Shown here: positions 1,537-52,888 of the stretch, one piece after another | Position numbering within the stretch: position 1 is the first letter of the stretch | Layout: every line of letters begins with the position of its first letter | Virus record (IMG/VR): IMGVR_UViG_3300044568_003163 | Location: 202,879-266,878 of that record | Length of the DNA: 64,000 bases | Direction: 5' to 3' (one strand) | DNA from: a virus | The notes under the pieces: model-generated | What the model was told of the DNA's origin: nothing | Seen by the model: only the letters and a program-made list of their open reading frames with translations | Databases searched by the model: none | Made by a program: the position numbers and the translations under genes

Positions 1537-2109
1537 CTAAATTATTTCTAAAAAGGTTTTGTCAGGTACTACTGCAGATATACTTCCTTCGTCTTCTGCA
1601 ATATTCGTATAATAGAATCCTGACTTTGCATTTCCGGCTTTAAGGGCTCTCATCATCATACCATTAGCTCTCATATCACTATGTGGTTTATTAGGAGTAT
1701 TAGACATAGAACCTATTATTTTAACAGGAAATACTATAGGCTTGCATTTCATAGAAACCTTTGTACGATCAGAATAAGTTGCAACTTCTCCTCTTTGAGT
1801 AGGATAATAATCTTCTTCTGGTACATCACTACCTGCATTATAACCAGTTATACACCATTTGCCTTGTTTTTGTAAAGCTCTTAGTGTAGCTTTACCGGCT
1901 AATAAAGTTTTACCGTATTCAGTTTTTCCTTCCCATCCACCAATTGCTGGAACTCCTATTCTAGCTTCTAAGGCTTCTGTTGCTGCCAATTTAGTTCCAA
2001 TATGAATTCCATTCTTACCTTCAAGGTTTTTGTCGGTAGATCCATGATAGTATTGAGTTACATTATATGATTCGTTGATGAATTGGTTATATGTAGGTAA
2101 ATTTTTCAT
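1537..2109 (-). CDS. Tagged internal protein, possible ADP-ribosyltransferase fold
   Basis: Residues 1-13 (MKNLPTYNQFINE) form a capsid-targeting-like tag with a predicted prohead-protease cut after Glu13. After the tag, YYHGS at 20-24, then GIHIGT at 34-39 and an A..AL helix, resemble the first strands of His-Tyr-Glu type ADP-ribosyltransferases. A later FYYTN and the C-terminal FLEI could provide Tyr and Glu, but I cannot confirm the triad. T4 Alt is a head-packaged ADP-ribosyltransferase, so this would be a functional parallel. The stop-start boundary overlaps the upstream phoH gene by one base. The tag is clear; the enzymatic guess is tentative. Confidence 0.7.
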   Translation of the reverse strand: MKNLPTYNQFINESYNVTQYYHGSTDKNLEGKNGIHIGTKLAATEALEARIGVPAIGGWEGKTEYGKTLLAGKATLRALQKQGKWCITGYNAGSDVPEEDYYPTQRGEVATYSDRTKVSMKCKPIVFPVKIIGSMSNTPNKPHSDMRANGMMMRALKAGNAKSGFYYTNIAEDEGSISAVVPDKTFLEII

Positions 2110-2846
2110 TATGCTTGTAATTCGTTGAAAACTTGTTCTATTTTTTTGATTAAAGGATTTCTTACAATATCTTCATCAGAAAGTGCAATACATCCGAATT
2201 CTTCTACTTTAGAAAATTTCTCCATTATCATAGGTAGTGATGAATTTTTCTTCATCTTAAGGTCAATCTGTCCGGTGTCTCCTAGGAAAATCATCTTACA
2301 ATTAGAACCTATACGGGTCATAATAGTACGCATGTTGTCATGAGTGATATTTTGACATTCGTCTATTAATACTATACAATCATCGAAATTAATTCCTCTA
2401 AGGAATGCTATTGGCATCACTTCGATTGAGCCATTATCTCTAAGAGTTTTAGTTATAGAACGACCAACAATTTTTTCAAAGTTGTGAATGAATGAGTAAA
2501 TATAAGGCTCCATCTTTTCATCAAGAGTTCCTTTTAAGAAACCAATCTCTTCATCTTTTAATGTAGTAACCGACTTAACGATATAAATCTTTTTGTATCT
2601 TTGATCGTTTTTAAACAGCTTAAGAGCTTGAGCGCAAGCAACATAAGTTTTTCCAGTTCCAGCAGGACCTGAACAGATTACTATTTCTTTATCTTCAATA
2701 TATGAAGCAAACAGTTTTTGGTTTGGGTTTTTTGCCTTTAGTTCGACTTTTACTTTAGTAAGTGTGCCGTTTTTAGGTGCAGTCATAATAGATTCTAGAA
2801 CTTGTTGTTCTTCCTCTTCAGTCAATTTCTTTCTACGATTACTCAT
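2109..2846 (-). CDS. phoH: PhoH-like ATPase
   Basis: A 245-residue P-loop NTPase of the PhoH family. Walker A is GPAGTGKT at 60-67. The lead-in KNPNQKLF at 39-46 is typical of PhoH, where Q contacts adenine. Walker B is VLIDECQN at about 159-166, followed by a sensor-like LGDTGQID. The N-terminus (1-35) is charged and carries no PIN domain, so this is the short phage form. PhoH is frequent in marine and T4-like phages; its role is unsettled (RNA or nucleotide metabolism is proposed). It lies between the tape measure and tagged-protein genes, in what looks like a late operon. Confidence 0.9.
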   Translation of the reverse strand: MSNRRKKLTEEEEQQVLESIMTAPKNGTLTKVKVELKAKNPNQKLFASYIEDKEIVICSGPAGTGKTYVACAQALKLFKNDQRYKKIYIVKSVTTLKDEEIGFLKGTLDEKMEPYIYSFIHNFEKIVGRSITKTLRDNGSIEVMPIAFLRGINFDDCIVLIDECQNITHDNMRTIMTRIGSNCKMIFLGDTGQIDLKMKKNSSLPMIMEKFSKVEEFGCIALSDEDIVRNPLIKKIEQVFNELQA

Positions 2847-2859
2847 AAATTTTTGTTTT

Positions 2860-14734: not shown

Positions 14735-14763
14735 TATTATTATATGCAATAGAGATAAAAAGG

Positions 14764-19592: not shown

Positions 19593-19606
19593 TTTTATTA
19601 TATATC
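19593..19606 (-). promoter_or_regulatory. Late promoter GATATATAATAAAA (gp18)
   Basis: A strong match to the window's late consensus, ending 14 bases before the sheath start codon. Confidence 0.65.
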
Positions 19607-34506: not shown

Positions 34507-34734
34507 TTATTGTTCGTTAGTAAAGAATTTTGTTACTTGGTCTAAGTTTTCGTTTGCTACTGAGATGTGGTCTTCTGCCCAATCATGTCCATTCTTTAAG
34601 ATTTCGTCCATTTTAATAGGATCCATAGCTAAAAGAATTTCAACATTTCTTTTGATGGTTTTAAGATTTCCAATTGTCATATAGTTTTCAGCCTTTTCGT
34701 TTACAAATTCACTGAATGTAGGTAAGTGTTCCAT
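34507..34734 (-). CDS. Tagged internal protein, 75 aa
   Basis: Tag MEHLPTFSEFVNE (1-13), cut expected before Lys14. The remaining 62 residues are helical and acidic (IKMDEILKNGHDWAEDHISVANENLDQV). It directly follows another tagged gene (one-base spacing) and is closed by the terminator at 34451-34479. Confidence 0.7.
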   Translation of the reverse strand: MEHLPTFSEFVNEKAENYMTIGNLKTIKRNVEILLAMDPIKMDEILKNGHDWAEDHISVANENLDQVTKFFTNEQ

Positions 34735-35142
34735 TTACTTCAATAATTTTCTAATATTTTCAATAACTATTGATCGATGATTGATAACTGCCTGAGCTTC
34801 TTTAGGATGTCTTTGCATAAGTTTTATCGTTTCTCTTGCCCAATTTTCTATTTCCTTTGTTAGCTCAAGAGTTTTAGGCCAGGTTGAATCGTTAACGACA
34901 TCAAAATCTGGATTACCTTCTAGTGATTCAATTCCAGTTTCTACGCTTTTATCGATGTTCGACCAATATCCACCTCCTTTAGAACTTATGATAGTTCCAA
35001 CTGATACTTTTACTTTTCTAGTTCCTCTGATATTTTTAACTTCAGTGTCTTTATTAGCAATATATACATTCCAATATTCTCCACCTTTATCTAAAAATGT
35101 AGATTCATTTAAGAATTCTTCGTATGTAGGTAGTTTACTCAT
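34735..35142 (-). CDS. Tagged internal protein, 135 aa
   Basis: Tag MSKLPTYEEFLNE (1-13), cut expected before Ser14. The mature part has a small beta region (YWNVYIANKDTEVKNIRGTRKVKVSVGTII) and a helical C-terminal half. Middle gene of a three-gene run of tagged proteins (36638 to 34507) with near-zero spacing. Function unknown. Confidence 0.7.
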   Translation of the reverse strand: MSKLPTYEEFLNESTFLDKGGEYWNVYIANKDTEVKNIRGTRKVKVSVGTIISSKGGGYWSNIDKSVETGIESLEGNPDFDVVNDSTWPKTLELTKEIENWARETIKLMQRHPKEAQAVINHRSIVIENIRKLLK

Positions 35143-36638
35143 TATTTCTTTGTTTTCTTATTTTCAAATGTTATTCCAGCATGTGCACTTCCTTTAGCTT
35201 CACCTGGATGATATTCACCATCAAATGAAGTTACTACGAAAGTTTTATATGGCGATACTGAACAACCAATTCTTTCCATAAATTTACGATTAACTAAAAA
35301 TTTAGTAGATTTATCTGTTCTATTAACTAATGAAACCTGAACCTCTTTGTAAGTTTTACCTGCAAATGCAATATCCATTTCAATTATAGGCCTTTCATCT
35401 ATATCGTTACCAACTTCTGCGTTAGAAATTCCAATTATCTGATGTACGTATTTTTTGCCGTTCAATTCCCAATTACACTGTTTACCATCTTCGCTAATTT
35501 TCATTTTATCATAAGTCATAGAACATGAAAGTGAACCGTTTCCAGTATCAAATTTAGCAACAACATCACCAATTCCAGGAATTGTAATTACTTCTCTAAA
35601 TCCAATAACTCTACGAGAACGAATCCAATTTTGTCTATCTGATAGAAAATCGATGATGTCTTTAATAACATCTACACCAGTAGCTTTTTTTAATCCTTGT
35701 GTACCTGGAGATGAGTTAACTTCCAGTACATAGTTTTTACCTGTTTTCTCATCAACGATAATATCAACTCCACACCAATTACAACCTACTGCCTTAGCCG
35801 ATTCGATTGCAATTCTTTCTTGTTCTGGTGTTAATTTAGTTTTTTCAACAGAACCACCTAATGAATAGTTAGTTCTAAAGTCTTTATCGACTTTGTTTCT
35901 TCTCATATAACCTAAAAGTACCGAGTCAGTATCTTCTGGTTTAGGCGAATTGAAACGTTTAGTTAAAACGTGAATACGTAAGTCATATTCTGATTCGATT
36001 TTTTCTTGTATAAGAGTTTCTACAGTTGGATCTACTTTCCATAAAGTTTGTAATACTGATTTAAGAGATGCCAATGAATCTATAATAGAAACTCCAATTC
36101 CTTGAGAACCAGAAAGCATTTTAAGAATTACAGGAAATTGTCCGCCGATTTGTTCAACTGCCGGTTCGATAGAATCTTCTCCATCGACCATTGCCATTTT
36201 AGGAACTGGAAGACCAGCATCCATAAGCATTTTCGAAGTAACGTATTTGTTTTCGCATGCTAAAACTGAACTTAGTGTGTTTACTACAAAAAAGTTATTG
36301 TCTTCTAATTGAGATACAATATCTCGAGTATAAGTATTTCTAACGATTCCTCTACGAGTTAAAATCGCAGTATCTTCGGAATCAATTTTAAAGGGTTTCT
36401 TGGTTTTATCAACGATAGTAAAATAATCTCCATCAGTACTTTTAGTTAACGAACATGTGTTAACGTCAATGATACGGAATTCAATTCCACGTTTTTTACA
36501 TTCTTTCTCAACTGCAGGAACGGTATATGATTCCTCACTGATATTTGAAAGGAGTACAACCTTAACAGGATTTTTAGGTGTTGATTTTGTAGCCTCATTA
36601 ATTACAAATTCGTTAAAGTATGCGAGACGGTTTTTCAT
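35142..36638 (-). CDS. Tagged RimK-like ATP-grasp ligase with retropepsin-like domain
   Basis: 498 residues. The N-terminus MKNRLAYFNEFVINEA is a tag with the cut expected after Glu15. Residues about 25-330 are an ATP-grasp ligase of the RimK type: LKMLSGSQGIGVSI (ATP loop), a IQEKIES.YDLRIHVL segment, WCGVDIIVDEKTG and EVNSSPGTQGL (metal-binding Glu/Asn). RimK-type enzymes add amino acids, often Glu, to a protein or peptide C-terminus. Residues about 345-490 match the RimK-associated aspartic-protease-like domain, with AKFDTGNGSLSC as the DTG motif. Both domains in one packaged protein would let the virion deliver a protein-modifying enzyme. Domain recognition good; packaging inferred. Confidence 0.8.
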   Translation of the reverse strand: MKNRLAYFNEFVINEATKSTPKNPVKVVLLSNISEESYTVPAVEKECKKRGIEFRIIDVNTCSLTKSTDGDYFTIVDKTKKPFKIDSEDTAILTRRGIVRNTYTRDIVSQLEDNNFFVVNTLSSVLACENKYVTSKMLMDAGLPVPKMAMVDGEDSIEPAVEQIGGQFPVILKMLSGSQGIGVSIIDSLASLKSVLQTLWKVDPTVETLIQEKIESEYDLRIHVLTKRFNSPKPEDTDSVLLGYMRRNKVDKDFRTNYSLGGSVEKTKLTPEQERIAIESAKAVGCNWCGVDIIVDEKTGKNYVLEVNSSPGTQGLKKATGVDVIKDIIDFLSDRQNWIRSRRVIGFREVITIPGIGDVVAKFDTGNGSLSCSMTYDKMKISEDGKQCNWELNGKKYVHQIIGISNAEVGNDIDERPIIEMDIAFAGKTYKEVQVSLVNRTDKSTKFLVNRKFMERIGCSVSPYKTFVVTSFDGEYHPGEAKGSAHAGITFENKKTKK

Positions 36639-37122
36639 TTTTGCGTATATATTTTATGAATGATTTCTGATTATCTATCATCATTCTCTTACATTTTTCA
36701 GTAAAAGCTAATGAAGATTCAATAACTCGTTGGTCTATTTTTTCGTTACCTTTAAGGTAGTATTTAAAACATTTTTCACAAGTAAAATTACTTGGAATGT
36801 ATGTATCTATTCGAGATTGAATCTCTTTATTGCAATAAGCACAGTTCCAATCAAATATCTTATACGAATCTTTTACTAATGAATAAGAAGATATGTCTTT
36901 TGACCCTGGTTGAACAAATGGCCTATTCAAATGAGATACTCTTATTCTTCCATCTTCGATCCTAAAGATGGCATTTATAAAAAGGTCATCATCAGCATAT
37001 TTCTTAACTACTGGATTTTCCTTTAGTATTCGTTGATGCCTAGGTGGAAGTCCTTTAAGTACGATTCCATATTTAGTAGGAGTTTTACCTAAGTTCTGTC
37101 TTTTTATATGATAATTAGCCAT
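36613..37122 (-). CDS. Zinc-ribbon protein, 169 aa
   Basis: Two CxxC pairs (CAYC near 94-97, CEKC near 114-117) make a small zinc ribbon in the middle. The N-terminal part is basic (IKRQNLGKTPTKYG) and the C-terminal tail has mixed charge (RKNEKPSRIL). The gene overlaps both neighbours by a few bases. Possibly a nucleic-acid-binding or assembly protein. Not recognised. Confidence 0.65.
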   Translation of the reverse strand: MANYHIKRQNLGKTPTKYGIVLKGLPPRHQRILKENPVVKKYADDDLFINAIFRIEDGRIRVSHLNRPFVQPGSKDISSYSLVKDSYKIFDWNCAYCNKEIQSRIDTYIPSNFTCEKCFKYYLKGNEKIDQRVIESSLAFTEKCKRMMIDNQKSFIKYIRKNEKPSRIL

Positions 37123-39226
37123 TTATAGGATATTCATTCCATAAATTATTTAATCGTTCCTCTGCTAATGAAAGTATTGCGGATATTGTCCATAAATCAG
37201 TAGAATTACCTTCTTCGGCAGTTTCTTTATATTTATCGATAGCTGCTTTAGCTATATCTAAATTAGCTTGAATTTTATCTACTTCAGTTTGTAGGATTTC
37301 CTTTTTAGCTTCATCGGTTTCATTCTTAAGCTCTTCTTTCTTTGAATCTAATCCGGTTTTGATTGCATCGTACTTTTCAGTTGCAGTACGAAGTTTAAAT
37401 TCTTCGATAGTTTCTGTTTGTTCTTCTTCAGGAGCTTCTTTAGGAGATTCACTAGTAGCTTTCTCTAATTTTTCTGGATCAGTCTTTTTTGCTGATGCTT
37501 CACCTTGCTTTTCTGCTTCGTCTGACTTTTTTTCTAAGTCCTTCATCATTTCTATAGCCTTGTCTAATTGACCTTTAAGAGCTTTTTTCTTTTTATCACT
37601 AGGAATTAAAGTAGCAAGTTGAGTAAGAAATTCAACACGATTTTTAGCACGTTGTTTCGATATGTACAACCACGAAAAGAAATTAGCTTTACCTAATAGA
37701 CCTCCAACTAATTCGTTGGTAGCATCTTTTTGATTTTCTACTGCTGAATCAATATCTTTCAATTGAGAAACATATGAATCGGTAGCAATTTCTACTTGTT
37801 CTCTAAAAGCTTCAAGTTTTTCTTCGTCAGTCATATCCGTATCTTCGCTTTTGAAATTATCTTTAACGTCATCAACTTCTACTTGTGCCTTTCTTTTAGC
37901 AGTAGCCGCATCAGATATTTCCTTTTCTAGAGCTCTAATTTCAGCAGCATCTTCTTTTGGATCTAAATTAGCCTTTTCTTTTCTAAGTCTATTAAGTTTT
38001 TTATCGGCATTAGATAAATTAGACTTAGCTTGCTCTAATTTTTCTTTTGTCTTTTCGTTAGACTTTTTAATGTTTTTAAGTTCTTCTTCGTCTGAATCTT
38101 CTTCCTCTTCGGCATTTATATCGTCAGCAGTATCATCAGTTGCAGTTGCACCAGTAGGTCCAGTAGTTCCTTCTGGTTCTTTTTCGGTCGATGTAGTTGA
38201 TCCGGTAGGACCTGTAGTTCCATCAATTGCAGTAGTTCCTTCTGGTTCCCTTTCAGAAGATGAAGTTGCACCAGTAGGTCCAGTAGTTCCTTCTGGGTTT
38301 TTAACTTCTGGCTCTTCTGCTGGAGTTTCTTCTTGCTTTAATTTTTCTATTTCGGCTTTAAGATTATCATAAGCTTCTTTTGCAGATTGTTTACCTTCAA
38401 CAGATGAATTATCTAATTCTAATTTAAGTCGATCTAAATCAGCTAATTTAGACGCAAGTAAAGCTTCTTTTGCTTTTTTCTCTAATTCGGCTTTATCTAA
38501 TTGGTCTTCTCCATCTTCTTTAAGATTAGAAATTTCCTTTTTGATTTTAGCAAATTTTTCATAGTTAACATAAGATTCCTGTCTTGCTTTTGCTATTTTC
38601 TTAGCGTCATTAGCATCGTCAGCCTTCTTAATGTCTTTCTGTTCAGCAGATAATTTAGCATTTTCTGCTTGATATTTTTTATGAGTTACTTCTAATTCTC
38701 GTCTCTTTTCTGGATCGTCGACAACAGAAGTTATTTTTTTCTTAATTGATTGAATTTCGTCTTTAACCTTAGCCTTAATTTTACTAATCTTTTCTAATTT
38801 ATCAGTATCTGAAGCACCTTTAGGTTGTGGAGTAGTTTTAGGTTCAGTTGGTTTAGGAGTTTCCTTTGCCTTAGGTTCTACCTTAGGCTTAGGTGCATCT
38901 TTTTTCTTTGGTTCAACTTTGGCTTTCTTTGCAGGAGTTTTATCCGGTGCTTTAGGTTTAACTTTTTTAGATACCTTCCTAGCTTGTTTTCTTGCTGCTC
39001 TTTTTTGTGCAGCAGTTTGAACTTCAACTAAAGCAATATATTGTGGTAGACTTGAAAAGTCATATTCTTTTAATGATTCAAATACATCTCCTAATGTGGC
39101 ATCCTCATCGACAAAAATATCGAAATCTTCACATATCGTTTCAAAAAGAGATTCTAACAGATCTAAGTATATTTGATCGTTTACTTCTTCTTCGTATTTT
39201 TCTAATAAATAGTTGTTTAATTTCAT
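37115..39226 (-). CDS. Long coiled-coil protein with GPTG repeats, 703 aa
   Basis: Begins MKLNNYLLEKYEEE, whose LLE could be a prohead-protease site, though it is not the standard tag. Residues about 75-145 are Lys/Pro/Ala-rich, like histone tails. Residues about 150-310 and 375-620 are charged coiled coil. Residues about 310-365 hold three EPEGTT...GPTGAT-type units. The composition (Lys/Glu/Ala, low complexity) resembles scaffold or internal core proteins that share the head with DNA. It lies between the capsid genes and the packaged-enzyme gene. I propose a scaffold or DNA-associated internal protein; identity not certain. Confidence 0.6.
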   Translation of the reverse strand: MKLNNYLLEKYEEEVNDQIYLDLLESLFETICEDFDIFVDEDATLGDVFESLKEYDFSSLPQYIALVEVQTAAQKRAARKQARKVSKKVKPKAPDKTPAKKAKVEPKKKDAPKPKVEPKAKETPKPTEPKTTPQPKGASDTDKLEKISKIKAKVKDEIQSIKKKITSVVDDPEKRRELEVTHKKYQAENAKLSAEQKDIKKADDANDAKKIAKARQESYVNYEKFAKIKKEISNLKEDGEDQLDKAELEKKAKEALLASKLADLDRLKLELDNSSVEGKQSAKEAYDNLKAEIEKLKQEETPAEEPEVKNPEGTTGPTGATSSSEREPEGTTAIDGTTGPTGSTTSTEKEPEGTTGPTGATATDDTADDINAEEEEDSDEEELKNIKKSNEKTKEKLEQAKSNLSNADKKLNRLRKEKANLDPKEDAAEIRALEKEISDAATAKRKAQVEVDDVKDNFKSEDTDMTDEEKLEAFREQVEIATDSYVSQLKDIDSAVENQKDATNELVGGLLGKANFFSWLYISKQRAKNRVEFLTQLATLIPSDKKKKALKGQLDKAIEMMKDLEKKSDEAEKQGEASAKKTDPEKLEKATSESPKEAPEEEQTETIEEFKLRTATEKYDAIKTGLDSKKEELKNETDEAKKEILQTEVDKIQANLDIAKAAIDKYKETAEEGNSTDLWTISAILSLAEERLNNLWNEYPING
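38146..38305 (-). repeat. Three direct repeats encoding EPEGTT..GPTGAT
   Basis: The stretch GCACCAGTAGGTCCAGTAG recurs near-identically with short spacers inside the 37115-39226 gene. This encodes collagen-like turns and would be prone to slippage or recombination. Confidence 0.7.
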
Positions 39227-39904: not shown

Positions 39905-41527
39905 TTATACTAAAGAACCAAGAAGGTTAGACATAAATACACCTGAAGTGATATACATAGTTTCTGGTTTGAAACCTGCTTCAACTAAAGCGTATCTTGA
40001 TTTAACAGCTACTTTAGGAGCCATAGTTCCTTCAGCAATTGTTTGTACTGATTCAGCCATTAAGTAAGGCATGAATACTAAACCTGGAGAGTTACCATCA
40101 CCTTTACGTCCAACTAAGAAACGAGTATCGTTCCAAGCCATGTTAGGATCGTTGTAGATAGCAAGACCTGCAACAGTTCCAATTGGGTAAAGTGAACCAC
40201 TCATTTGGTTAATAGTATTAGCCATAGGAGCAGGAACGAAACCAGCTATATCTTGTAGGGCAGAACATACTTGACCGTTTGTAACGATGAAAGTAGCTGG
40301 ACCTCTACGACCTCTAATTGCAATAAGGTTAGCGATTGCAAGGATCTTAGACATAATTTTTCTCTGACGAGTTGAAAGATTCTCAGAAGCTGAGTTTGTA
40401 ACCTCAGAAGCAAGAATAGTTGCAGCTCTAAGAGTAGTATCTTGGATGTAAGCACCAAAGTTAGTTTGAGTGTTAGCAGATGTACCAGATACAACAATTG
40501 AAGTAGCACCAATGTTCAAGAAGAAGTTGATTCCTTGAGAGTTAACAACATTTTTGTGGTTAGTTTCTCCAAGAGCAAATAATCTAGAAAGGATGTTTTT
40601 GTTGATTGATTGAGTCAATTCATTGATAAGTACTGATTCTACTTGAGATACAGCATCTACTCCGAATTGTTTCAAATCTTGAACTTGCTCTCTAGTAACA
40701 GCAGCTGCAACTTGGAAAGTTTTAGCTTCAACTGATTTGTTGAAAAGACTTAAGTTCATTACGTTGTCTGGAGTAGACTCACCTAAAGATCTAGAATATG
40801 GATCGTTAATATCATCTCCAGTATAATCGTTGTTAGTTAAAGCTTGACCTGAGAATCCAGTGATGTGGTCTTCTAAAGCTTTTACTAATTCTACGTTTAA
40901 TCCAGAAGTAGCACCAGTTACACCTGAGATACCTGAAGCACCTAAGATAGTAGTAAAAGTTGAAAGGATAGTAGCACCAGAAAGAGTACCTCTAACGTGG
41001 AAGATTGGATAACCATCTAAACGAGAAGATCCTACATAAGCAAGAGTAACTCCATTAGTTGAAGCAGAAGTTCCACCAACTACAAACGAAGGAACTGTAG
41101 CAGAACCATAGTTTACTTTGATTAATAATGGAGAATTTGTAGTAGAAGCAGTTTGACCACCAGCATATACGAAGTCTAAGTAAGTTAATACTCCCATTGG
41201 ACCAGGCATTGGTACAACAGGTACTAAGTCAAGACCAATAGTTTGAGCAGCAACTTGCATTGCTAATGGAAGAAGTGTGTGAGCTTTATCACCTGAACCA
41301 GCTTCTTGACCTGGGAAACCAGCTTGAGTACCTGGATCTCCAGGGAAACGAGTTGCACCCATACCGTTTACAGAACCTAATTGAGCTAAGCTATTGTTTT
41401 CATACAATTCATGATAATGACAGTATTTAGACATCCACTCTACTCTATTACGCTCTTGAATTCCTGTAGTAGACTCAATGATTGGAGCCCATTTACCGAA
41501 TATTTCTTGTTCGTTAATTAAATACAT
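39905..41527 (-). CDS. gp23: Major capsid protein gp23
   Basis: 540 residues (T4: 521). The N-terminus MYLINEQEIFGKWAPIIEST parallels T4 gp23 (LLNKWKPLLEGE) and serves as the delta segment removed by the prohead protease. Candidate cut sites of the (I/L)-x-E type occur at Ile4-Glu6 and in PIIE. The HK97-like core includes a PMPGPMGVLTYLDFVYAG segment near 105-120 and late conserved motifs (RRGPATFIVTNGQVCSAL; KVAVKSRYALVEAGFKPETM). It forms the hexamers of the head. Late promoter at 41597-41611 and a strong terminator flank it, consistent with the most abundant product. Confidence 0.95.
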   Translation of the reverse strand: MYLINEQEIFGKWAPIIESTTGIQERNRVEWMSKYCHYHELYENNSLAQLGSVNGMGATRFPGDPGTQAGFPGQEAGSGDKAHTLLPLAMQVAAQTIGLDLVPVVPMPGPMGVLTYLDFVYAGGQTASTTNSPLLIKVNYGSATVPSFVVGGTSASTNGVTLAYVGSSRLDGYPIFHVRGTLSGATILSTFTTILGASGISGVTGATSGLNVELVKALEDHITGFSGQALTNNDYTGDDINDPYSRSLGESTPDNVMNLSLFNKSVEAKTFQVAAAVTREQVQDLKQFGVDAVSQVESVLINELTQSINKNILSRLFALGETNHKNVVNSQGINFFLNIGATSIVVSGTSANTQTNFGAYIQDTTLRAATILASEVTNSASENLSTRQRKIMSKILAIANLIAIRGRRGPATFIVTNGQVCSALQDIAGFVPAPMANTINQMSGSLYPIGTVAGLAIYNDPNMAWNDTRFLVGRKGDGNSPGLVFMPYLMAESVQTIAEGTMAPKVAVKSRYALVEAGFKPETMYITSGVFMSNLLGSLV

Positions 41528-41596: not shown

Positions 41597-41611
41597 GTTT
41601 AAGTATATATC
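41597..41611 (-). promoter_or_regulatory. Late promoter GATATATACTTAAAC (gp23)
   Basis: A strong late element about 70 bases before the capsid start, identical in its ATATATACTTAAAC core to the portal promoter. Its first bases pair in a small hairpin (41609-41626). Confidence 0.65.
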
Positions 41612-41637: not shown

Positions 41638-42258
41638 TTATAATAAGTTAACCTTTTCTAAAGATTCTAAGTTAGATTCAATTCCGTCTATTAGATTCGA
41701 TATTAAAGTTTCGTATTGTTTAACATATTCATCAGTTAATATAGAAGCTCTTTCTGGATTATTTGCAAACATACTCCAATCAATACCTGAAGGTTTTAAT
41801 AAAGGAGAATTTTCATCTGCAGCCGGTTTAGAATTTACTGAACCTTTTCTCATTTCTAACCCAAAATCATTATACCAGAAAGTCATTGCATTTCTTACAT
41901 CAGTTATGTCTAACCTTGGTTCTTTTGATCGGTTTAAATTAGGAGCAAGAGTTCCGTAATTTTGATGTTCTTTGACAATTACTTTACGAATTTTAATAAG
42001 TTTTGAATATCCCATCATTGGTGAATATTCGATACAAAAAAGAGCTTGACCCTTAGAATTGTAAAGTTGTACACTTTCATAAGAAGGAGCTGTTTGTATA
42101 CCATATTTAGAAAATATTCTTTTCAAATCTTTTCCTAGAAAATCTTTTGTGATTTTCGAAACTTGTTTGGCTATATCTAATTGATTAGGTTCTAACGAAG
42201 CTTTTTCATTAAGAATGGATTCATTAATAAATTCAGCAAATGTTAATAAATTCTTCAT
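41638..42258 (-). CDS. Tagged internal/core protein, 206 aa
   Basis: Tag MKNLLTFAEFINE (1-13), cut expected before Ser14. A second (I/L)-x-E site follows in ILNE (15-18). The mature protein is alpha/beta with a Lys-rich middle (MGYSKLIKIRKVIVKEHQ) and an acidic helical C-terminus. It lies between the protease-scaffold and capsid genes, the place of T4 scaffold gene 22, so it may be a prohead core component as well as packaged cargo. Confidence 0.75.
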   Translation of the reverse strand: MKNLLTFAEFINESILNEKASLEPNQLDIAKQVSKITKDFLGKDLKRIFSKYGIQTAPSYESVQLYNSKGQALFCIEYSPMMGYSKLIKIRKVIVKEHQNYGTLAPNLNRSKEPRLDITDVRNAMTFWYNDFGLEMRKGSVNSKPAADENSPLLKPSGIDWSMFANNPERASILTDEYVKQYETLISNLIDGIESNLESLEKVNLL

Positions 42259-42329: not shown

Positions 42330-44243
42330 TTATCTGTTAAATCTTCTTCTTAATTCAGCTTCTACGGTTTCCATGTAATTAGCCGGAGTTTTATATTCTG
42401 CAGTTTCATTAACAATTGCTGGTGCAGCACCTTCATTTAATGGAGCATCAATTTTAACTGATCTTAAATCTCTAGTAGCCCAGAAATCATCGATTTTATA
42501 TTGATTATCTAAAACTTTTACTGAAGCTTGAGCCTTAATTGAATTTCTTTGAGATTCATTTAAGTTATTCCAAGAGTCTTTGTATTTAGCTGGCATATTA
42601 GTTAACCAATTTGTAACTGGTCTAAATGCAATAAATGCAGATTCATATAATCTTTCAGCATCAACTGAACCATAGAATTTGTTATTTTCAAAAACTGCAA
42701 TAACTTCGTCTTTTTTCTCAGGAGTTAATGCATCAAATTGATTTCTCTTGTTTTCTGATAGGAAATTCAAGAAGTGTAATTTGTTAGCATCTACTGATTC
42801 ATTAACAGTTTTTGCATTTTCTAAAATAGTATTTAATTTGTCGGTTAATGTCTTTTGGAAAGCATCTTCTTCATTACCTTCAATTTTATCTACGATAGTT
42901 CTTTTTGGATTTGAATGTAATACTAAGTTTTCGTCGATTGATTGAGTACCTTCTAAACCAGTAACTTTACCTTCATTAATTTCTTTAACGATGTGATTAA
43001 GATAACCTGCAAGATTTTGTGTATTTTCTTTTAAGTACTCAGTATATTCAATGATTGATGATGTACCTTCAACAATATAATCGTTATGAGAAATTACATT
43101 ATCTAATTGCTCATTCATATGTTGTTGATAAGCCCAACGTGAGTTAGATTCATTAGCAAGATATTTACTAAATTCAATATTTTGATCTGCCTTTTCTGCA
43201 ACAACTTTAGTATATTCAATACCTCTATCGCTCATTTCAGCAACTAATTTAGTATACTCAATTAAGTGGTCAACCGATTCAGAAAGTTTTTCTGAGTAGT
43301 TAATTCCTTGATTAGATTTTTCACCAACTAATTCTGCATAATTTTTAACTCTTTCAAGATTTTCAATGATATAATCATTATGAGAAATTAAGCCATCAAC
43401 TGATTCTGCTAGTTTTTCAACATAAGAATTAATTTGATTAACTCTTTTTGCAGTTTCTTCGGTGTAACGTATCAATCCTTCATTAACAGATGAAGAATCT
43501 TTAGCTGATGATTCGGTTAAAGACTTTTTAAGATTTTCTACTTCGTTTTTAACATGTTTAGTATATTCGTTAAAATCTTCAACGGTAATGTATTTTTTAG
43601 GATCCATTTTGTCGTTTTTTGTTTCGTTTATTGGGTTTGGGGTTGGTTCTTCTTGTTGATAGATTAAAACAGGCATATCAGATTCGCTCAAATCAGACTC
43701 TATTTCATAGATCTGTGTTAATGAATCGTTGTCTAATCCAAAAGATTCGTTTACTCTTTTCAATTCGGCATTAGCAAATCCAGGATCTGCAACTAAATCG
43801 TAAGTAAACATTTTTTTAATTTTAACATGGCCATTAGATTCAACAACACCGGCAGCTCTAGAAGAAATATGAAGAGGTACACCAGCATCTACTAATGCCA
43901 TTGCTTGTTTTCCAGCATCAGTATTAAGTAATCTGATTCTACCAGTAACTTTTTTGCTAGCTTTATCGTATTGAATGTCTTCAATAATATGTGAAGCATT
44001 CTTTAACGATATATCAAAAGATTTAGGGTGGTCAAGTTCTCCAAGAAGTTTATTACCTTTAAGTTTTTCTTGTAAGTCTTGTATGTGTGGCATTAACTCA
44101 GCTTCATCGTAAATACGATTATTCTTGTTTCTAATGCCTATTTCGGTGAAAACACCTTCCAACACATATTTATCTCCATCCTTAGAAGATGTAAGATTTC
44201 CTTCCGATCTTTCTAATACAAGTAGATATTTATTATTGCTCAT
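42330..44243 (-). CDS. gp21: Prohead protease gp21 fused to scaffold-like coiled coil
   Basis: 637 residues; T4 gp21 has 212. Residues 1-165 are the protease: GVFTEIGIRNKNNRIY, ELDHP with His72, ISSRA with Ser127/128, and YDLVADPGF, the S80/herpes-assemblin-like set. Residues about 213-440 are a long helical region with recurring short units (EYTKLVAEMSDRGIEYTKVVAEK), and residues 440-637 form a mixed C-terminal part. The fusion brings protease and scaffold (gp21 and gp22 roles) into one chain. A Met at 213 (43607) could be an internal start giving scaffold alone, as in other phages. The protease would release itself, cut tags from internal proteins and trim gp23. Confidence 0.85.
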   Translation of the reverse strand: MSNNKYLLVLERSEGNLTSSKDGDKYVLEGVFTEIGIRNKNNRIYDEAELMPHIQDLQEKLKGNKLLGELDHPKSFDISLKNASHIIEDIQYDKASKKVTGRIRLLNTDAGKQAMALVDAGVPLHISSRAAGVVESNGHVKIKKMFTYDLVADPGFANAELKRVNESFGLDNDSLTQIYEIESDLSESDMPVLIYQQEEPTPNPINETKNDKMDPKKYITVEDFNEYTKHVKNEVENLKKSLTESSAKDSSSVNEGLIRYTEETAKRVNQINSYVEKLAESVDGLISHNDYIIENLERVKNYAELVGEKSNQGINYSEKLSESVDHLIEYTKLVAEMSDRGIEYTKVVAEKADQNIEFSKYLANESNSRWAYQQHMNEQLDNVISHNDYIVEGTSSIIEYTEYLKENTQNLAGYLNHIVKEINEGKVTGLEGTQSIDENLVLHSNPKRTIVDKIEGNEEDAFQKTLTDKLNTILENAKTVNESVDANKLHFLNFLSENKRNQFDALTPEKKDEVIAVFENNKFYGSVDAERLYESAFIAFRPVTNWLTNMPAKYKDSWNNLNESQRNSIKAQASVKVLDNQYKIDDFWATRDLRSVKIDAPLNEGAAPAIVNETAEYKTPANYMETVEAELRRRFNR

Positions 44244-44255: not shown

Positions 44256-44270
44256 TTTTAGTTATATATC
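44256..44270 (-). promoter_or_regulatory. Late promoter GATATATAACTAAAA (gp21)
   Basis: 13 bases upstream of the protease-scaffold start codon. Confidence 0.65.
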
Positions 44271-44299: not shown

Positions 44300-45913
44300 T
44301 TACATTCCTGTTGCTTCGGCATCCTTTTTGGCTGCTTCTCTTCTTTCTACATCTTCGATGTCTTTTAGTTTCTTGTTAAGACGTAAATCGTCATTAGATA
44401 AACCTAAGAATCTTTGTATTAAGAATTCAGAAGCAAAGTATTTTACTTCGTTCATGTTTGCATCAGTATCAACAAGACCATCTTTCATCGAAGTTACGAA
44501 GTCTAATCTTTTCTGTAAGATTTCAATTTCTTTCATCTCTTCAAAGATGTTCATTGTGTTATATTTTACACCGATTTGGGCTTTAAACGCATCGTCTTCT
44601 TTTATTTCAGGAAAGTCTAAACACATTTGAATCCAAAGTGGTTTTGTAAGTATTTCTTGGAAAACTGAACGTAAACGAGTAACAAAACGTCCAAATTTAA
44701 TCTCGTCTCTAGTCATACCCTCGGCATTCATTTCCCATGAAGGTGGGGATTCCATATCAAAACGGGAAAGTGGAATTTTAGATACTTTAATTAATTTCTC
44801 TCTGAAGTATTTAAGAGCATCAGTATCTGAAAGGTCTGGACCATCGTTTCCAATAGTCTCTATTGTAGGTTCACCAGCATCACCTGATGGCAACCAATAT
44901 TCTTTGTTAAATGGCATCATTGCTTTACCATTAACTTTTAATTCACCAGATTCAGTATCAAAATCTATTTGCTCTCGGTAGTTTTGCATTAAAACTCCAA
45001 GAGATTGTTTTGCTCTAGTTTTTGATTTACCACCAACCGGAATTACAAATTTAGTTTTAAACGAAGCATTAACAGTAGCCCAAATAACTCTTGAGTGTTC
45101 CATAATTCTAAGTAAGTTAAAAGAACGAATAAGTCTTTCAACATAAGAAACTCGATTTACAGTATTAACGTTAGCATAAGAGATGTAAATAACTTGAGAA
45201 TCATAAACAACTCTTTCCTTATTTGGCATACCTTTAAATTGTTTCCAAATTTTCTTACCTTCTTTATCGATTCCAGGTTCAAGATTTATTGGATCTAATT
45301 CTTTAAATCCTATAATTCTTGATTGTTCTTTGTCGTAAATTATCTCAAATGCAAGATAACCATCAACTAACCATTTTCTAAAGTAAGACCAAGCGGCAAT
45401 ATCATTATTGAATCCAAAGTATTGATAGATTCTTTTAAAATTAGTATCTAAAGCGATTTTAACTGCTTCTAATGTTGTAGGTTCTAATGTATCATCATCA
45501 AAAGATAATGGCATACAAAAGTAATTTTTATCATCATAAACTACACATTCATCACAAAGAGTATCAAGAATATCTTCTATCTCATCTTGGATAGCGAATT
45601 TTCTAAGGTCTTCTCTTTTCTTAGGATATGATTTATCAAAGATGGAAATTGATTTACGAAGATTGATATCGGTCATCGATAGATTAGCGAAAAGTGCATA
45701 ATCATCGTATTCTCCTCCAGCAACATTTCTCGGATCAAGTCTCCAACCATATTGGTCTTCGTTGATACCGATAGCTTTGGAATTCTTCAGCACCATATCA
45801 TCATACATCATTCCAAAGGAAGATAATGATTTAAGTGCTTTGCTGACGATATTTCTCGAAGCCGGTGTTGGTTTACCGTTTGAGGTTTCGTCTCTATTTA
45901 CAAATCCTGGCAT
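44300..45913 (-). CDS. gp20: Portal protein gp20
   Basis: 537 residues (T4: 524). It shows the T4-type portal pattern: an N-terminal wing (YGWRLDPRN...YALFANLSMTDI), an RVSYVERLIRSFNLLRIMEHSRVIWATVNAS stretch in the middle, and the stem/crown region with EIGNDGPDLSDTDALKYFREKLIKVSKIPLSR. Twelve copies form the vertex ring through which gp17 packages DNA. The order gp4, gp2-region gene, gp20, gp21, gp23 is the T4 head-gene order with insertions. Confidence 0.95.
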   Translation of the reverse strand: MPGFVNRDETSNGKPTPASRNIVSKALKSLSSFGMMYDDMVLKNSKAIGINEDQYGWRLDPRNVAGGEYDDYALFANLSMTDINLRKSISIFDKSYPKKREDLRKFAIQDEIEDILDTLCDECVVYDDKNYFCMPLSFDDDTLEPTTLEAVKIALDTNFKRIYQYFGFNNDIAAWSYFRKWLVDGYLAFEIIYDKEQSRIIGFKELDPINLEPGIDKEGKKIWKQFKGMPNKERVVYDSQVIYISYANVNTVNRVSYVERLIRSFNLLRIMEHSRVIWATVNASFKTKFVIPVGGKSKTRAKQSLGVLMQNYREQIDFDTESGELKVNGKAMMPFNKEYWLPSGDAGEPTIETIGNDGPDLSDTDALKYFREKLIKVSKIPLSRFDMESPPSWEMNAEGMTRDEIKFGRFVTRLRSVFQEILTKPLWIQMCLDFPEIKEDDAFKAQIGVKYNTMNIFEEMKEIEILQKRLDFVTSMKDGLVDTDANMNEVKYFASEFLIQRFLGLSNDDLRLNKKLKDIEDVERREAAKKDAEATGM

Positions 45914-47174: not shown

Positions 47175-47182
47175 ATTTTAAT

Positions 47183-47926
47183 TTAGAATTTAGATTTAGC
47201 AGTAAACCAATAGATTTCAAAGCCTCCGTATTTCTCTCCCATACATAATACATTCATTGTCGAATCAAAAGTTATATAATCATCTGCTTCTGCCTTTGGG
47301 AAATCCTTGATTTCCGCACCTCTAAATTTAGATTTCAACGCTTTATATGTGTCATATAAATCATCGTCAAAATTTTCATCGAGACCAAATACATCTTTTG
47401 GTTCGGCTCCTAAATGTTTACATATTTCTCTTACTAATTCCTGTAACGGTTTGTCATCACCTTTCTCATCAATATAAGTTTGAGCATCGAATTCTCCACT
47501 TAATTCAGCGATGGCTTTAGCAACACTTAGTTTACCTTCGTTAATCGTAGAAGAACTAGAAGTTCTTACTAATCTACGAGAGTTTTTTTTAGAGGTAGAA
47601 ACACCTTCTAAAACTTGTACAAAACCACCTTTAGCAATAACATCAGCAATTTCAACATCGGTCATCTGAACGTCATTAGCTTTGTCTTCACCATTAAATA
47701 AGTGAACTCCATCGGTTACACCTGCATAGTACATGTCAGTGTTAACGTTTCCATCTACTGTGATAACATATTCTTTACCAGGTAACAATTCAGAAACTGA
47801 AGTTAAAGCTGGACCAGTTGGATCTTGTCCTGTAGTATTTTGTGGGTTGAATCCATCAGCATCAGTAGCCTCCTGAATCTTGTAATGTTCGTTTACGAAC
47901 TCGTCAAATGATAATAATTTTTTCAT
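47183..47926 (-). CDS. Tagged internal protein, 247 aa, two paralogous modules
   Basis: Tag MKKLLSFDEFVNE (1-13), cut expected before His14. Residues about 43-105 (SELLPGKEYVI, a hydrophobic MYYAGVTDGVHLFNGED and MTDVEIADVIAKGGF) match the C-terminus of the 49527-51191 protein (LTAGKEYTVKG, GAYIFNQKD, MTEIEVTDLIKSG). Residues about 165-247, ending in WFTAKSKF, match the C-terminus of the next tagged gene (FFTAKSKF). It is a mosaic of domains reused in packaged proteins. Function unknown. Confidence 0.75.
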   Translation of the reverse strand: MKKLLSFDEFVNEHYKIQEATDADGFNPQNTTGQDPTGPALTSVSELLPGKEYVITVDGNVNTDMYYAGVTDGVHLFNGEDKANDVQMTDVEIADVIAKGGFVQVLEGVSTSKKNSRRLVRTSSSSTINEGKLSVAKAIAELSGEFDAQTYIDEKGDDKPLQELVREICKHLGAEPKDVFGLDENFDDDLYDTYKALKSKFRGAEIKDFPKAEADDYITFDSTMNVLCMGEKYGGFEIYWFTAKSKF

Positions 47927-47951: not shown

Positions 47952-48359
47952 TTATTTGATAAATTTAGATTTAGCAGTAAAGAAATAACTAATCATTCCA
48001 TTATCTTCTGCTCTAACTACATTAGATTTTGTAAAATGATTTAAGTCTTCTCCCATACTGAAATCATTACTTGCAATAGATTTTGTTTCCGGAGTCATTC
48101 CGTTATATTCACTATCGATTTCATCAAAAAGCTGAACAAGATCGTCTTCCATTTCTTCTGAGCTTACCATAAAAATTTCAGTTGGTTTTGCTTTAAGAGC
48201 TTTAATTATTAAGTCGTATCCGTGATATTCACCTTCTATCTCTGTTATGTTCGGTAAATCTCTTGATTTTATAGCATCTTTGAAGAATGTTTCTTCATTT
48301 AGTGAGTTTAATTTGCTTGATTCATTTATAAATTCAGCAAAAGATAGTAAATTTTTCAT
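47952..48359 (-). CDS. Tagged internal protein, 135 aa
   Basis: Tag MKNLLSFAEFINE (1-13), cut expected before Ser14. The mature part (KAKPTEIFMVSSEEMEDDL through FFTAKSKFIK) is a paralogue of the C-terminal domain of the gene downstream. The pair probably arose by duplication. Late-type promoter at 48372-48385. Function unknown. Confidence 0.75.
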   Translation of the reverse strand: MKNLLSFAEFINESSKLNSLNEETFFKDAIKSRDLPNITEIEGEYHGYDLIIKALKAKPTEIFMVSSEEMEDDLVQLFDEIDSEYNGMTPETKSIASNDFSMGEDLNHFTKSNVVRAEDNGMISYFFTAKSKFIK

Positions 48360-48371: not shown

Positions 48372-48385
48372 TTTTTATATTTATC
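48372..48385 (-). promoter_or_regulatory. Late-type promoter GATAAATATAAAAA
   Basis: It overlaps the stop codon of the upstream gene and precedes the tagged gene at 48359; identical to the element at 23533-23546. Confidence 0.55.
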
Positions 48386-48905
48386 CAATGTATGTTGGGT
48401 AACTTCCTCCAGATGCAGAATCCGTAGTGTTTCGATACCCTTTAACTTTTGGATTAGAATCTGCAGCAGATACAGGATTTAATGTACCAGTACCAACCAT
48501 TTCCGCTTCTTCAACTTCTTCTCCTTCTTTTTTCTTAGGAGGATTTTCTTCTAATTCCTTTTTTAATTCCTTTTGAGCAACTACAGCTTCTGGATTTTGA
48601 ATCTTTTCAGCTTTATCTCTGATTTTATTCATTTCTTCTTGACTTAATTCATCCTTAAGAATAAAAGTAGAAGGCTTTTCATTAGTAAATATTTTACTTC
48701 GGAAATAATCAAATACAAAAACTAATTTGTCTTGATCGTATACATTAAAAGTTTTAGAAAATGCGTCTTGTTCAAATCTATATTTTTCTAGATTTTCTAT
48801 TTTCCATGCAGACCACCATTCTGGAGTCATAGCATATACTCGATTTAGATTAGATAGGCTAACGGATTCATTAACAAAATCTGCAAATTTTAAAAGACGA
48901 TTCAT
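48381..48905 (-). CDS. Tagged internal protein, 174 aa
   Basis: I take the start at 48905 (MNRLLKFADFVNE, the tag), because the further-upstream Met lies inside the gp55-like gene and would add a foreign N-terminus. Cut expected before Ser14. Mature part: an aromatic alpha/beta section (VYAMTPEWWSAWKIENLEKYRFEQDAF), then a Glu/Lys/Pro-rich linker and a Ser/Gly-rich tail. Function unknown. Confidence 0.75.
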   Translation of the reverse strand: MNRLLKFADFVNESVSLSNLNRVYAMTPEWWSAWKIENLEKYRFEQDAFSKTFNVYDQDKLVFVFDYFRSKIFTNEKPSTFILKDELSQEEMNKIRDKAEKIQNPEAVVAQKELKKELEENPPKKKEGEEVEEAEMVGTGTLNPVSAADSNPKVKGYRNTTDSASGGSYPTYIG

Positions 48906-48918
48906 TTTGTTTATTATT

Positions 48919-49278: not shown

Positions 49279-49290
49279 TGATTTGAGGTT

Positions 49291-49512
49291 TTAAAATTTA
49301 ACGTCTAAAAACTTTCTTTCAATTAACTCCTTTTTACCTGTCGGAAGAACGATTTCAACTTTATCAGAATTTCCACTTTTAGTGTATTGTAAAGCATTAA
49401 CTTTAACCACATCTCCTTTTTTATAATTTTTAAAAGGAGATGTAATCGAAGCGTTTACGTATTCATCTGATTTTGATTCATTCAACCATTCATCAAATGT
49501 AGATAGTTTCAT
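49291..49512 (-). CDS. Tagged internal protein, 73 aa
   Basis: Start at 49512 (MKLSTFDEWLNE), since this Met begins the tag; the 24 codable bases upstream start with TTG and overlap the preceding stop. Cut expected before Ser13. The 60-residue remainder is a small beta domain (YKKGDVVKVNALQYTKSG, KVEIVLPTGKKELI), SH3-like in rhythm. Function unknown. Confidence 0.7.
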   Translation of the reverse strand: MKLSTFDEWLNESKSDEYVNASITSPFKNYKKGDVVKVNALQYTKSGNSDKVEIVLPTGKKELIERKFLDVKF

Positions 49513-49526
49513 ATTAGAATATGTTT

Positions 49527-51191: not shown

Positions 51192-51219
51192 GTTTTTATA
51201 TTGGTTTTTTTGTATTTTA

Positions 51220-51897
51220 TTATTTATACACAGCACATGTAATAGATTTACCATATAGTGGTATTAATGCTTCCATGTGTGCAGATTCAATGTAATCAAC
51301 CATAGTACCAGTAAATAATGGTCTACCGGTTTGATCGTGACTGAAATGTCCTTGAGTTCCTATTTGCCATAATGGATTAGAACCTGAAGTAATTACTGCT
51401 CTGTATTTTTCGTCTCCATTAGTTTTCCAAATTTCAATAGTAGAAGCACCATTAGTTTTTACGTTGAAGTACTTATTTTCACCTGAAGTAAGATTTAAAC
51501 TACCACAAGGTAAAATAGCACAACCACCACCTCGATAACCACTACTAAATTGTCTAGTAGTTTTGAATTGTTCAGAAGAAGGTCTTTTTGAGCCAGGTAA
51601 AACGTTGATGGAATTCATCGATTTATCAACATCCATTCCTAATGAACCAGCTCGATCAAAGAATACCTTTGTTACTGGATGATCTGATCCGAGAATTTGA
51701 TCTGCGGCAACACCTCTATCGAATGCTTTATTTTTGTCTGTAATTAACTTACACATTGTGTTAGCTAACATTAACATTTTAGATTCATCTCCTTTAGATT
51801 TTGTAACAATATCATTAATTCGTTGTAGGTCTTTTTGAGTAGCTTCAAGAACTAAAGACTCTAAAATAAAATCTTCGTATGTTTGTAAATTTTTCAT
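51220..51897 (-). CDS. Tagged internal protein, 225 aa
   Basis: Tag MKNLQTYEDFILE (1-13), cut expected before Ser14; a second (L)-x-E site is LVLE (15-18). The mature part starts with a helical region (about 20-60), contains several Cys, and ends in a beta-rich area (YRAVITSGSNPLWQIGTQGHFSHD). A possible papain- or lectin-like fold cannot be decided. It follows another tagged gene by one base. Function unknown. Confidence 0.7.
   Translation of the reverse strand: MKNLQTYEDFILESLVLEATQKDLQRINDIVTKSKGDESKMLMLANTMCKLITDKNKAFDRGVAADQILGSDHPVTKVFFDRAGSLGMDVDKSMNSINVLPGSKRPSSEQFKTTRQFSSGYRGGGCAILPCGSLNLTSGENKYFNVKTNGASTIEIWKTNGDEKYRAVITSGSNPLWQIGTQGHFSHDQTGRPLFTGTMVDYIESAHMEALIPLYGKSITCAVYK
51221..51228 (-). 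promoter_or_regulatory. Late promoter TATAAATA
   Basis: Exact T4 late core (GTGTATAAATAATAAAAT) 30 bases before the start at 51191, inside the 3' end of the upstream gene. Confidence 0.7.
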
Positions 51898-51898
51898 G

Positions 51899-52888
51899 TT
51901 ATTTAGCAGCTCCTACACCTTTAAGGTTAGGATATCTTTTTAAAACTGATGCAACTACTTGTTTTTTCAAGTCTGCATATTGTGGCCATGTAGCCCAAAC
52001 TAATGCAGTTTTTGCATGTTTCTCGTCGTGTATTGGCCATGCTTTACGATCAGGAAATACAAAATCTGTAGGTTTCAATTTATCCTTTTCGGTTTGAGAT
52101 AACTTCTCAAGAACTTTATGATAGTCTAAAACAGATTCTAAAACCTCATCTTCAAGACCAGTCATATCAAATCCCATAGATTCAGAAAGAATCTTTTTGA
52201 TTTTTTCCATTTTCTGAGCATCTTTTAGAGCATCTTTTAGAGCATCAATTTTTGCAGTATCTTCAGAACTTTCTCCTTCAGGTTTTTCTTCACCTTCTTT
52301 AGATTTTTCTTCATCATCTTTAAGTTTATCTAAAGCTTGTTTAACTCCGTCATCAGTTTTTGCTTTTGATGGGTCAATTCCTTTAGCTAAATCTTTTGTG
52401 TCAGCTTTAAGGATATCGTCCTCTTCTTCATAGAGACCACCTTTAGATTCTTGTATGAAATCGATATCTTCAACATCAAATTCGTAATCTGAACCATCTT
52501 CGGTATATCCGGTAAATTGAGTTCCCTTTTCACCTTTTAATTCTTTTGGATCGACACTATACCAATCGTTCTTAATGAAAACGGTTACTGGCTTTCCATT
52601 AGTTTGAGTATATAGGTCATGAGCAGTTTTTCCTTTGAATCTACTTCTAGATGCTTCACTTAATGCATCAGTGTCTATTGATTCGTTTAAGAATACCTTT
52701 TTAAGTACATTTATTTTTCTCTCTTCATCGACTCCAATTGTAGTCAAGAAAAGATATATTTGTTCTGGATTTTTTCCTTCAGATGCTAGTTTCTGAACAA
52801 TTGGAAATAAAGAACCAGCTCCGTAATACGAATATTGACCGAATAGATTCTCATTTACGAATTCTTCGTATGATTTAATTTTTGACAT
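51899..52888 (-). CDS. Tagged acidic scaffold-like protein, 329 aa
   Basis: Tag MSKIKSYEEFVNE (1-13), cut expected before Asn14. Further (I/L)-x-E sites occur (VFLNE near 66-70, SYDEAL-type, MTGLEDEVLE), so it may be cut into small peptides like T4 gp22. Residues about 160-240 are a Lys/Glu/Asp-rich low-complexity stretch. The remainder is helical. Prohead core or internal protein is the best guess. Late promoter GATATATAAATAAAAA at 52901-52916. Confidence 0.7.
   Translation of the reverse strand: MSKIKSYEEFVNENLFGQYSYYGAGSLFPIVQKLASEGKNPEQIYLFLTTIGVDEERKINVLKKVFLNESIDTDALSEASRSRFKGKTAHDLYTQTNGKPVTVFIKNDWYSVDPKELKGEKGTQFTGYTEDGSDYEFDVEDIDFIQESKGGLYEEEDDILKADTKDLAKGIDPSKAKTDDGVKQALDKLKDDEEKSKEGEEKPEGESSEDTAKIDALKDALKDAQKMEKIKKILSESMGFDMTGLEDEVLESVLDYHKVLEKLSQTEKDKLKPTDFVFPDRKAWPIHDEKHAKTALVWATWPQYADLKKQVVASVLKRYPNLKGVGAAK

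Follow-up and report, generated by a model that had tools for sequence, protein, structure and literature searches.

The closest described counterparts of the system treated here are the internal head proteins of phage T4. IPI, IPII, IPIII and Alt each carry a short N-terminal propeptide in which two aromatic residues stand three apart and are followed by I/L-x-E. According to the accessible part of PMC9026906, the T4 capsid targeting propeptides measure 7-19 residues, and in IPIII (MKTYQEFIAE) residues 4 and 7 are the main determinants of targeting and residues 8 and 10 those of processing; a change at residue 10 is reported there to abolish cutting only. That unrelated proteins may be joined only by such a sequence has already been published for T4 relatives (PMC3012670 and PMC9026906, in their accessible parts). 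In the present study, we analysed a 64,000-nucleotide stretch (the window) of the 294,034-base virus record IMGVR_UViG_3300044568_003163 (G000), the remainder of which was fetched and scanned throughout, and found that a short peptide tag recurs at the N-terminus of many otherwise different proteins. This tag is very probably a T4-type capsid targeting sequence that has been expanded into a genome-wide sorting of cargo, with presumed cleavage by an S77 protease and presumed delivery to the new host.

Two other systems invite comparison. In Salmonella phage SPN3US, and likewise among the phiKZ head ejection proteins, many proteins enter the head and part of them have protease-cut propeptides; for SPN3US, gp53 and gp54 are described with identical N-termini, and some propeptides with cutting by a gp21-like protease. 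Unlike the tag reported here, those propeptides are mostly much longer (only that of gp45, with 20 residues, is T4-sized), 42 head proteins are uncut, and the accessible parts of the two papers describe no short tag common to many proteins (PMC5694885, PMC10052503). Polyvalent proteins of phages and plasmids likewise release several effector-like domains into a host, but as single chains of 2 to 15 domains (PMC5512222, in its accessible part), whereas our set consists mostly of separate tagged proteins or short fusions, with cut sites at some of the joints. No published tag set of comparable size was found in a literature search that was judged by titles, abstract beginnings and passages of text and largely did not cover subscription papers. 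As far as this search shows, three things are new: how large the set is, that it can serve as an index for a whole group of large phages, and that it includes probable polyproteins which would be cut in the head.

The first-pass annotation had reported at least 13 tagged genes in the window. All 13 are real, each coordinate being the 5' end of a minus-strand open reading frame (ORF) that begins with the peptide described, and a profile search of the window recovers exactly the same 13; by way of correction, the ORFs at 48905 and 49512 begin at internal ATGs of slightly longer, mechanically called ORFs. As a total, however, 13 is too low, since the whole record holds about 53. A regular expression run on the 3,332 in-ORF ATGs of the record matched 56 of them, against a mean of 2.05 and a maximum of 7 in 200 shuffles and none in the reversed sequence; 56 of the 70 core motifs in any ORF sit 2-8 codons downstream of an ATG. 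Four matches (77820, 192709, 242104 and 279635) were discarded as weak or non-genic, and 51 of the 52 retained cores were built into a profile from which T4 was left out. At a threshold of 10 bits, this profile finds the tag on 53 of the 457 called genes (shuffles, 0.2). Some diverged tags are missed, for instance one at 41854-42216 of the record, which scores 5.3, and 53 is therefore a rough figure. A motif-free count points the same way, its strongest triple, F10-N12-E13, occurring in 32 proteins where 1.28 were expected. The tagged genes cluster at about 33-41, 109-117, 167-184, 204-256 and 272-282 kb of the record.

The tag is a protein signal and not a DNA repeat, because each of the 51 cores is a different 21-mer and together they encode 39 peptides. 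It is used as a module: in an alignment (MAFFT) of 52 tagged proteins, M1 and E13 are invariant and almost nothing is conserved beyond the tag, which bears out the earlier statement that only the peptide is common. With the tag removed, 55 tagged proteins fall into 54 families at E 1e-4, and 186 from seven genomes, T4 and Sphingomonas phage PAU among them, into 137; both sets use looser regular expressions and include a few false members, the smaller one still containing three of the discarded matches. One might suppose that the common start is a feature of translation initiation or of the DNA, or that the proteins are paralogues with fast-evolving bodies, as the fixed position at the start codon and the clustering of the genes would allow. 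We find this scarcely credible, given that synonymous codons vary at most positions of the 51 cores, that the bodies belong to different families, and that a 395-amino-acid (aa) tagged protein bears a second complete tag, KVPTFKKFINES, in its middle. As a separate observation, tagged proteins are poorer in cysteine than untagged ones in 9 of 9 genomes (G000, G001, G007, G011, G013, G016, G018, G023 and G026), with 5.0 against 10.3 per 1,000 residues in G000; T4 ipII and ipIII have none.

The core consensus reads (F/Y)-x-x-F-(I/L/V)-x-E, and its conserved positions correspond to residues 4, 7, 8 and 10 of IPIII: F or Y stands at position 7 in 49 of the 51 cores, and an aromatic at 10, I/L/V at 11 and E at 13 in all 51. 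These counts arise in part by construction, because the regular expression required those classes; the motif-free count is the independent check. When applied to T4, the profile gives 13.8 bits each for ipII and ipIII, the only two of 277 T4 genes to score at least 8 bits. The regular expression has four T4 matches, namely ipII, ipIII, one inside uvsW and one that overlaps 61.4 and is read from an earlier start than the annotated one; with its threshold lowered to 6 bits, the profile also picks up 61.1 and another ORF. Gene 61.1 itself (NC_000866 18966-19130, function unknown) begins MKTFKEFIKED, near to the capsid targeting sequence. The capsid-targeting-like character proposed in the first-pass annotation is thus supported by the positions, by the detection of ipII and ipIII, and by the S77 protease and the capsid N-terminal sites described below. 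As in T4, the mature proteins are unrelated to one another and an S77 protease is encoded in the genome; what differs is the number (about 53 tagged genes, where T4 has four known proteins), the N before E in 44 of the 51 cores, the presence of several probable polyproteins, and a RimK-type enzyme as cargo.

The gene for an S77 prohead protease with a fused scaffold-like region lies at 42330..44243 on the minus strand, the strand also of the tagged, capsid, portal and scaffold-like genes and of the promoter motifs given here for the window (Pfam S77, 1.5e-12; PHROG head maturation protease, 2.1e-40). It lies between tagged genes, as had been claimed, one of them standing between it and the gene for the major capsid protein of the Gp23 family (39905..41527; Pfam 4.9e-36). 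The T4-type portal protein (44300..45913; Pfam 1.1e-72) is untagged, with a score of -10.1. Eight (I/L/V)NE sites occur in the protease-scaffold protein, against 1.2 in shuffles, and the next residue is always S, G or T. At the capsid N-terminus, INE or LNE followed by (I/L/V)(I/L/V)E is found in 41 of 49 distinct sequences, the other eight, from the phages collection, being variable; PAU was taken from a wrong start in this count, and its true start holds KLNES. The same kind of site recurs within the cargo, with 23 (I/L/V)NE in the 52 tagged bodies of G000 (6.8 in shuffles), or 2.7 per 1,000 residues. Among 224 tagged genes of at least 10 bits in eight genomes, the residue after the tag E was readable in 210 (14 lay off the reading pattern) and is S, A or G in 152, against a background of about 19%, at a position outside the search motif. 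After internal sites in the eight genomes, S/A/G follows in 53 of 82 cases in tagged proteins against 137 of 556 in untagged ones (Fisher 3e-12), e.g., 16/23 against 19/94 in G000 and 15/19 against 13/62 in G023. Counts over related genomes, here and below, are not independent. The conservation of the sites and the preference for S/A/G fit cutting after the tag glutamate.

Several of the tagged proteins hold further sites between apparent domains, and we consider these to be, probably, small polyproteins cut in the head; candidates in G000 lie at 169016-170428, 175113-176378 and 178603-179544. In a junction test, we took domains that directly follow the tag in one phage and lie within a longer protein of another, and sought (I/L/V/F)xE at the joint; in 18 of 49 junctions a site coincides exactly with the end of the tag in the alignment, where 2.6% would be expected, and in 24 it is at most one residue off. 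An example is LNE/GNW at the start of a protein of G016, which corresponds to VNE/GVW within a 216-aa protein of G000 (a slash marks the predicted cut). A tally in which the genes with at least three sites are eight tagged genes plus the protease is true but includes the tag itself; a fairer comparison, limited to sites beyond residue 20, is given below. Such sites could also mean that the tagged proteins are components of the prohead core, or scaffold, which the tag targets and which are mostly chopped up and lost at maturation, so that few reach the host. T4 core proteins are indeed cleaved into several fragments (PMC9026906, accessible part), a tagged protein of 130 aa carries three internal sites, and the protease-scaffold protein has its eight. 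Against this, internal sites are scarce, 14 of the 23 in the 52 bodies being confined to five genes; some cargo domains are unlike scaffold (Pfam RimK, 1.9e-34; KTSC, 8.4e-14; nucleotidyltransferase, 2.8e-5); and 54 families lie far above what a scaffold would seem to require. We therefore regard the scaffold explanation as unlikely.

For a sorted and ejected cargo, the sequence of events would be as follows. The first 12-15 residues would bind the prohead core through the aromatics three apart (F/Y7 and F10) and so bring the protein into the head, where the S77 protease would cleave after the glutamate of (I/L/V)-x-E and release the mature protein. Some proteins would be cleaved again at internal sites, yielding two or more separate cargo domains. 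By analogy, the mature proteins would then leave the virion with the DNA, enter the new host cell with it and act there. From core binding to action in the host, these steps, the presence of tagged proteins in the virion included, are what we infer from the tag, its sites and the protease.

The promoters near the tagged genes bear on when the cargo would be made. One motif, GATATATA(A/C), has 27 sites in the record, all on the coding strand, and stands 26-29 nucleotides (nt) before the ATG of the sheath, protease and several other genes. In the window, it is seen at 19598..19606 (27 nt before the tail sheath-gene ATG), at 44262..44270 (27 nt before the protease-gene ATG), at 41603..41611 (84 nt before the capsid-gene ATG) and, as GATATATAA, at 52908..52916 (28 nt before a tagged-gene ATG). 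A second motif, TTATATTTGT, has 25 sites on the coding strand and four on the other. We call the first late-type and the second host-like, labels presumed from the genes that follow the sites and from known Bacteroidota promoters. The TTATATTTGT sites, e.g., upstream of the genes at 78103, 84331, 91283 and 149946 of the record, are often preceded by an imperfect palindrome, TCGAYATTT...TRTCGAG, which might be an operator.

Several results weigh against a sorted, cleaved and ejected cargo, and the promoters are among them. General late expression of the tagged genes is unsupported, because the first promoter upstream is of the host-like type in 26 of the 53 and of the late type in the other 27 (207 and 167, respectively, among untagged genes). 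In two cases a tagged gene has its own host-like promoter directly in front, and the tagged clusters at 108-117 and 167-180 kb of the record are associated with host-like promoters. The internal proteins of T4 are made early as well; packaging need not be excluded on this account, but the case for it gains nothing. Furthermore, the profile misses IPI and Alt, finding two of the four known T4 internal proteins. The untagged bodies are enriched in (I/L/V)NE too (93 against 65 shuffled; 1.3 per 1,000 residues), and the internal preference for S/A/G is carried mainly by G000 and G023, G011 showing no difference (3/8 against 28/66 in untagged proteins). As to the polyproteins, 25 of the 49 junctions, which are not mutually independent, lack a site within one residue, and two or more internal sites beyond residue 20 occur in five of the 53 tagged genes and in nine of the 404 others (P 0.015), a modest excess. 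A RimK relative in phage YerA41, annotated as structural, has no such tag; the structural label gives weak support, because that phage's list of 63 particle-associated proteins also holds polymerases and helicases. Finally, our literature search found no virion proteomics for the G000 phage or a close relative.

The mixed promoter types and the want of virion data would suit a tag that directs proteins elsewhere in the infected cell, to the membrane, to a replication site or to a phage-coded protease, its likeness to T4 being convergence. Speaking against such a destination are the agreement with the T4 sequence at the key residues, the link to S77 sites with their S/A/G preference after the cut, and the composition of the tag, in which no hydrophobic stretch was seen by eye. 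Moreover, none of 20 replication, packaging and structural genes of the window is tagged by the profile (about half of the 20 gene names being given by eye). We accordingly hold this alternative to be very improbable, and a capsid targeting sequence remains by far the most probable reading.

Turning to the cargo itself, most of the 52 proteins scanned match no known family. The remaining Pfam families listed for them, beside the three named above, are ATP-grasp relatives of RimK. Among PHROGs, there are matches to RNA 2'-phosphotransferase (2.5e-4) and, on residues 6-84 of a 313-aa tagged protein whose first internal site is at 84-86, to 'internal head protein' (6e-4). A match to ART-PolyVal (1.1e-3) fell below the cut-off, and some proteins resemble two or more modules. 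By eye, HELTH in a tagged protein of 126 aa (L007:2583-2963) is a HExxH motif like that of zinc peptidases.

One cargo gene, near the capsid genes, encodes an ATP-grasp ligase of the RimK type whose C-terminal region is RimB-like (35142..36638, 498 aa, MKNRLAYFNEFVINE/A; Pfam and Foldseek); it was found at 23 of the 82 loci examined. E15-A16 is invariant in all 12 sequences that were aligned (the window and 11 of the 23 loci), while tag and linker vary. In a structural model, which Foldseek matches to RimK structures, the predicted local distance difference test (pLDDT) score is below 50 at residues 1-21, where the tag lies. The tag is an addition to this enzyme, because the RimK of two cyanophages has none and begins at query residue 25. 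In a Methylophilales phage, RimK has a tag-like start and is the only gene of the genome above 8 bits. The C-terminal part has a DTG motif invariant in the 12 and a likeness to RimB that is weak by profile (PF05618, 0.025, under the cut-off). Bacteria are known to have RimB-RimK hybrids, which combine a RimK ligase with a retropepsin-like domain that carries a DTG motif (PMC11957791, accessible part); the window protein shares the ATP-grasp domain and the C-terminal DTG, and differs in being phage-coded and tagged.

In all 13 tagged genes of the window, the tag ends at residue 12-15. The twelve besides the RimK gene were identified by profile and start peptide. The first, at 1537..2109 (190 aa, MKNLPTYNQFINE/S), has a homologue (L211) of 58% identity whose start has diverged, E13 still being aligned. 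Its likeness to an ADP-ribosyltransferase is no more than a guess by eye: there is no Pfam or PHROG match, the best PDB hit has E 1.4, and a model from three sequences has a mean pLDDT of 35.5. Two adjoining genes follow at 22964..23191 (75 aa, MRHILTFNEFLNE/A) and 23191..23523 (110 aa, MNHIPKFNEFINE/A), the domain of the latter having a homologue in G007 that sits after an internal INE of a 238-aa protein. Next to the RimK gene lie 34507..34734 (75 aa, MEHLPTFSEFVNE/K), with relatives at 14 loci, part of them without a recognised tag, and 34735..35142 (135 aa, MSKLPTYEEFLNE/S). The gene between protease and capsid, at 41638..42258 (206 aa, MKNLLTFAEFINE/SILNE/K), may encode either cargo or a core protein. 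Then come 47183..47926 (247 aa, MKKLLSFDEFVNE/H; relatives at 27 loci, tagged in most of those listed), 47952..48359 (135 aa, MKNLLSFAEFINE/S), 48381..48905 (174 aa, MNRLLKFADFVNE/S; relatives at 25 loci) and 49291..49512 (73 aa, MKLSTFDEWLNE/S; relatives at 25 loci, several within longer proteins and some directly after an xE site). The last two are 51220..51897 (225 aa, MKNLQTYEDFILE/SLVLE/A) and 51899..52888 (329 aa, MSKIKSYEEFVNE/N), the latter with tagged relatives in G013, G016 and G018. Of the cargo size first given as 75 to 498 residues, the upper end stands and the lower end must be moved to 73.

Near the capsid gene, a protein that looks scaffold-like by eye and has no family match (37115..39226) gave a weak match to the regular expression, which was discarded. 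It and a short protein at 31190-31675 show, by eye, collagen-like G-x-T-G-P-T-G repeats. Two tandem small proteins at 14276-14749 and 14764-15225 have lipoprotein-like signal starts and a CAP-domain-like sequence, again by eye.

The tag is spread among other phages. A strict DNA pattern of it was found in 33 of 51 records (G000, ten named phages and 40 IMG/VR records, the last drawn from the best 80 of 535 loci), with five control matches in all. The search of related genomes by profile, which the first-pass annotation had put forward as a check, gave 14 to 34 genes of at least 10 bits in each of eight other contigs, which differ in length and include fragments. In G026 (L189-L208; the first 390.5 of 429 kb), a variant, MKYIxEYEEFLxE, was seen, 25 of 617 genes reading at least 8 bits. 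The strict pattern has no match in PTm1, PAU, pT24, MA9V-2, MaF61, Lak-A2 or syn9, where a different tag is possible, as the case of PAU illustrates, and the motif-free count found no common start in PTm1 or in Pelagibacter phage Mosig. In PAU, an isolate (L096, L117-L128), about 18 ORFs begin with a common peptide of their own, like MKTLxxLYE, and many of these lie around the portal, protease and capsid genes (20 regular-expression matches, at least one inside another gene; shuffles, 0.2). Two of these ORFs were annotated 'internal capsid protein' by the depositors, on grounds that we did not see. The arrangement resembles that of G000, but the peptide is another, and the window profile finds only 1 of 302 PAU genes at 10 bits. 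Given this different common start in PAU, tag sets of this kind may have had more than one origin or have diverged strongly.

The capsid protein of G000 is closest to those of large phages including LR756500, Lak, PTm1, PAU and MA9V; since several of these have Bacteroidota hosts, the host is likely to be a member of the Bacteroidota as well. Membership in the bS21-phage group was considered and dropped, there being no match to ribosomal S21 in any of four genomes (G000, G016, PAU and T4).

Recognisable relatives are rare among head-cargo proteins, and for this reason little is known of what large phages inject. If our reading is true, the injected set of a whole phage group can be read from its DNA, and the cargo, most of it without known function, becomes a ready list in which to seek proteins of host takeover and anti-defence. 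We put at about even chances the wider picture that the heads of these phages are a protein-delivery machine with a portable label and some fifty effectors per genome, in which small polyproteins travel under one label and are cut inside the head, and the tag is a readable index of the injected proteins. If that picture holds, effectors could be gained, fused or split just by shifting the label or a cut site of three residues. The joints at cut sites hint at the way in which cargo proteins are exchanged, and the tag could be used to load chosen proteins into phage heads.

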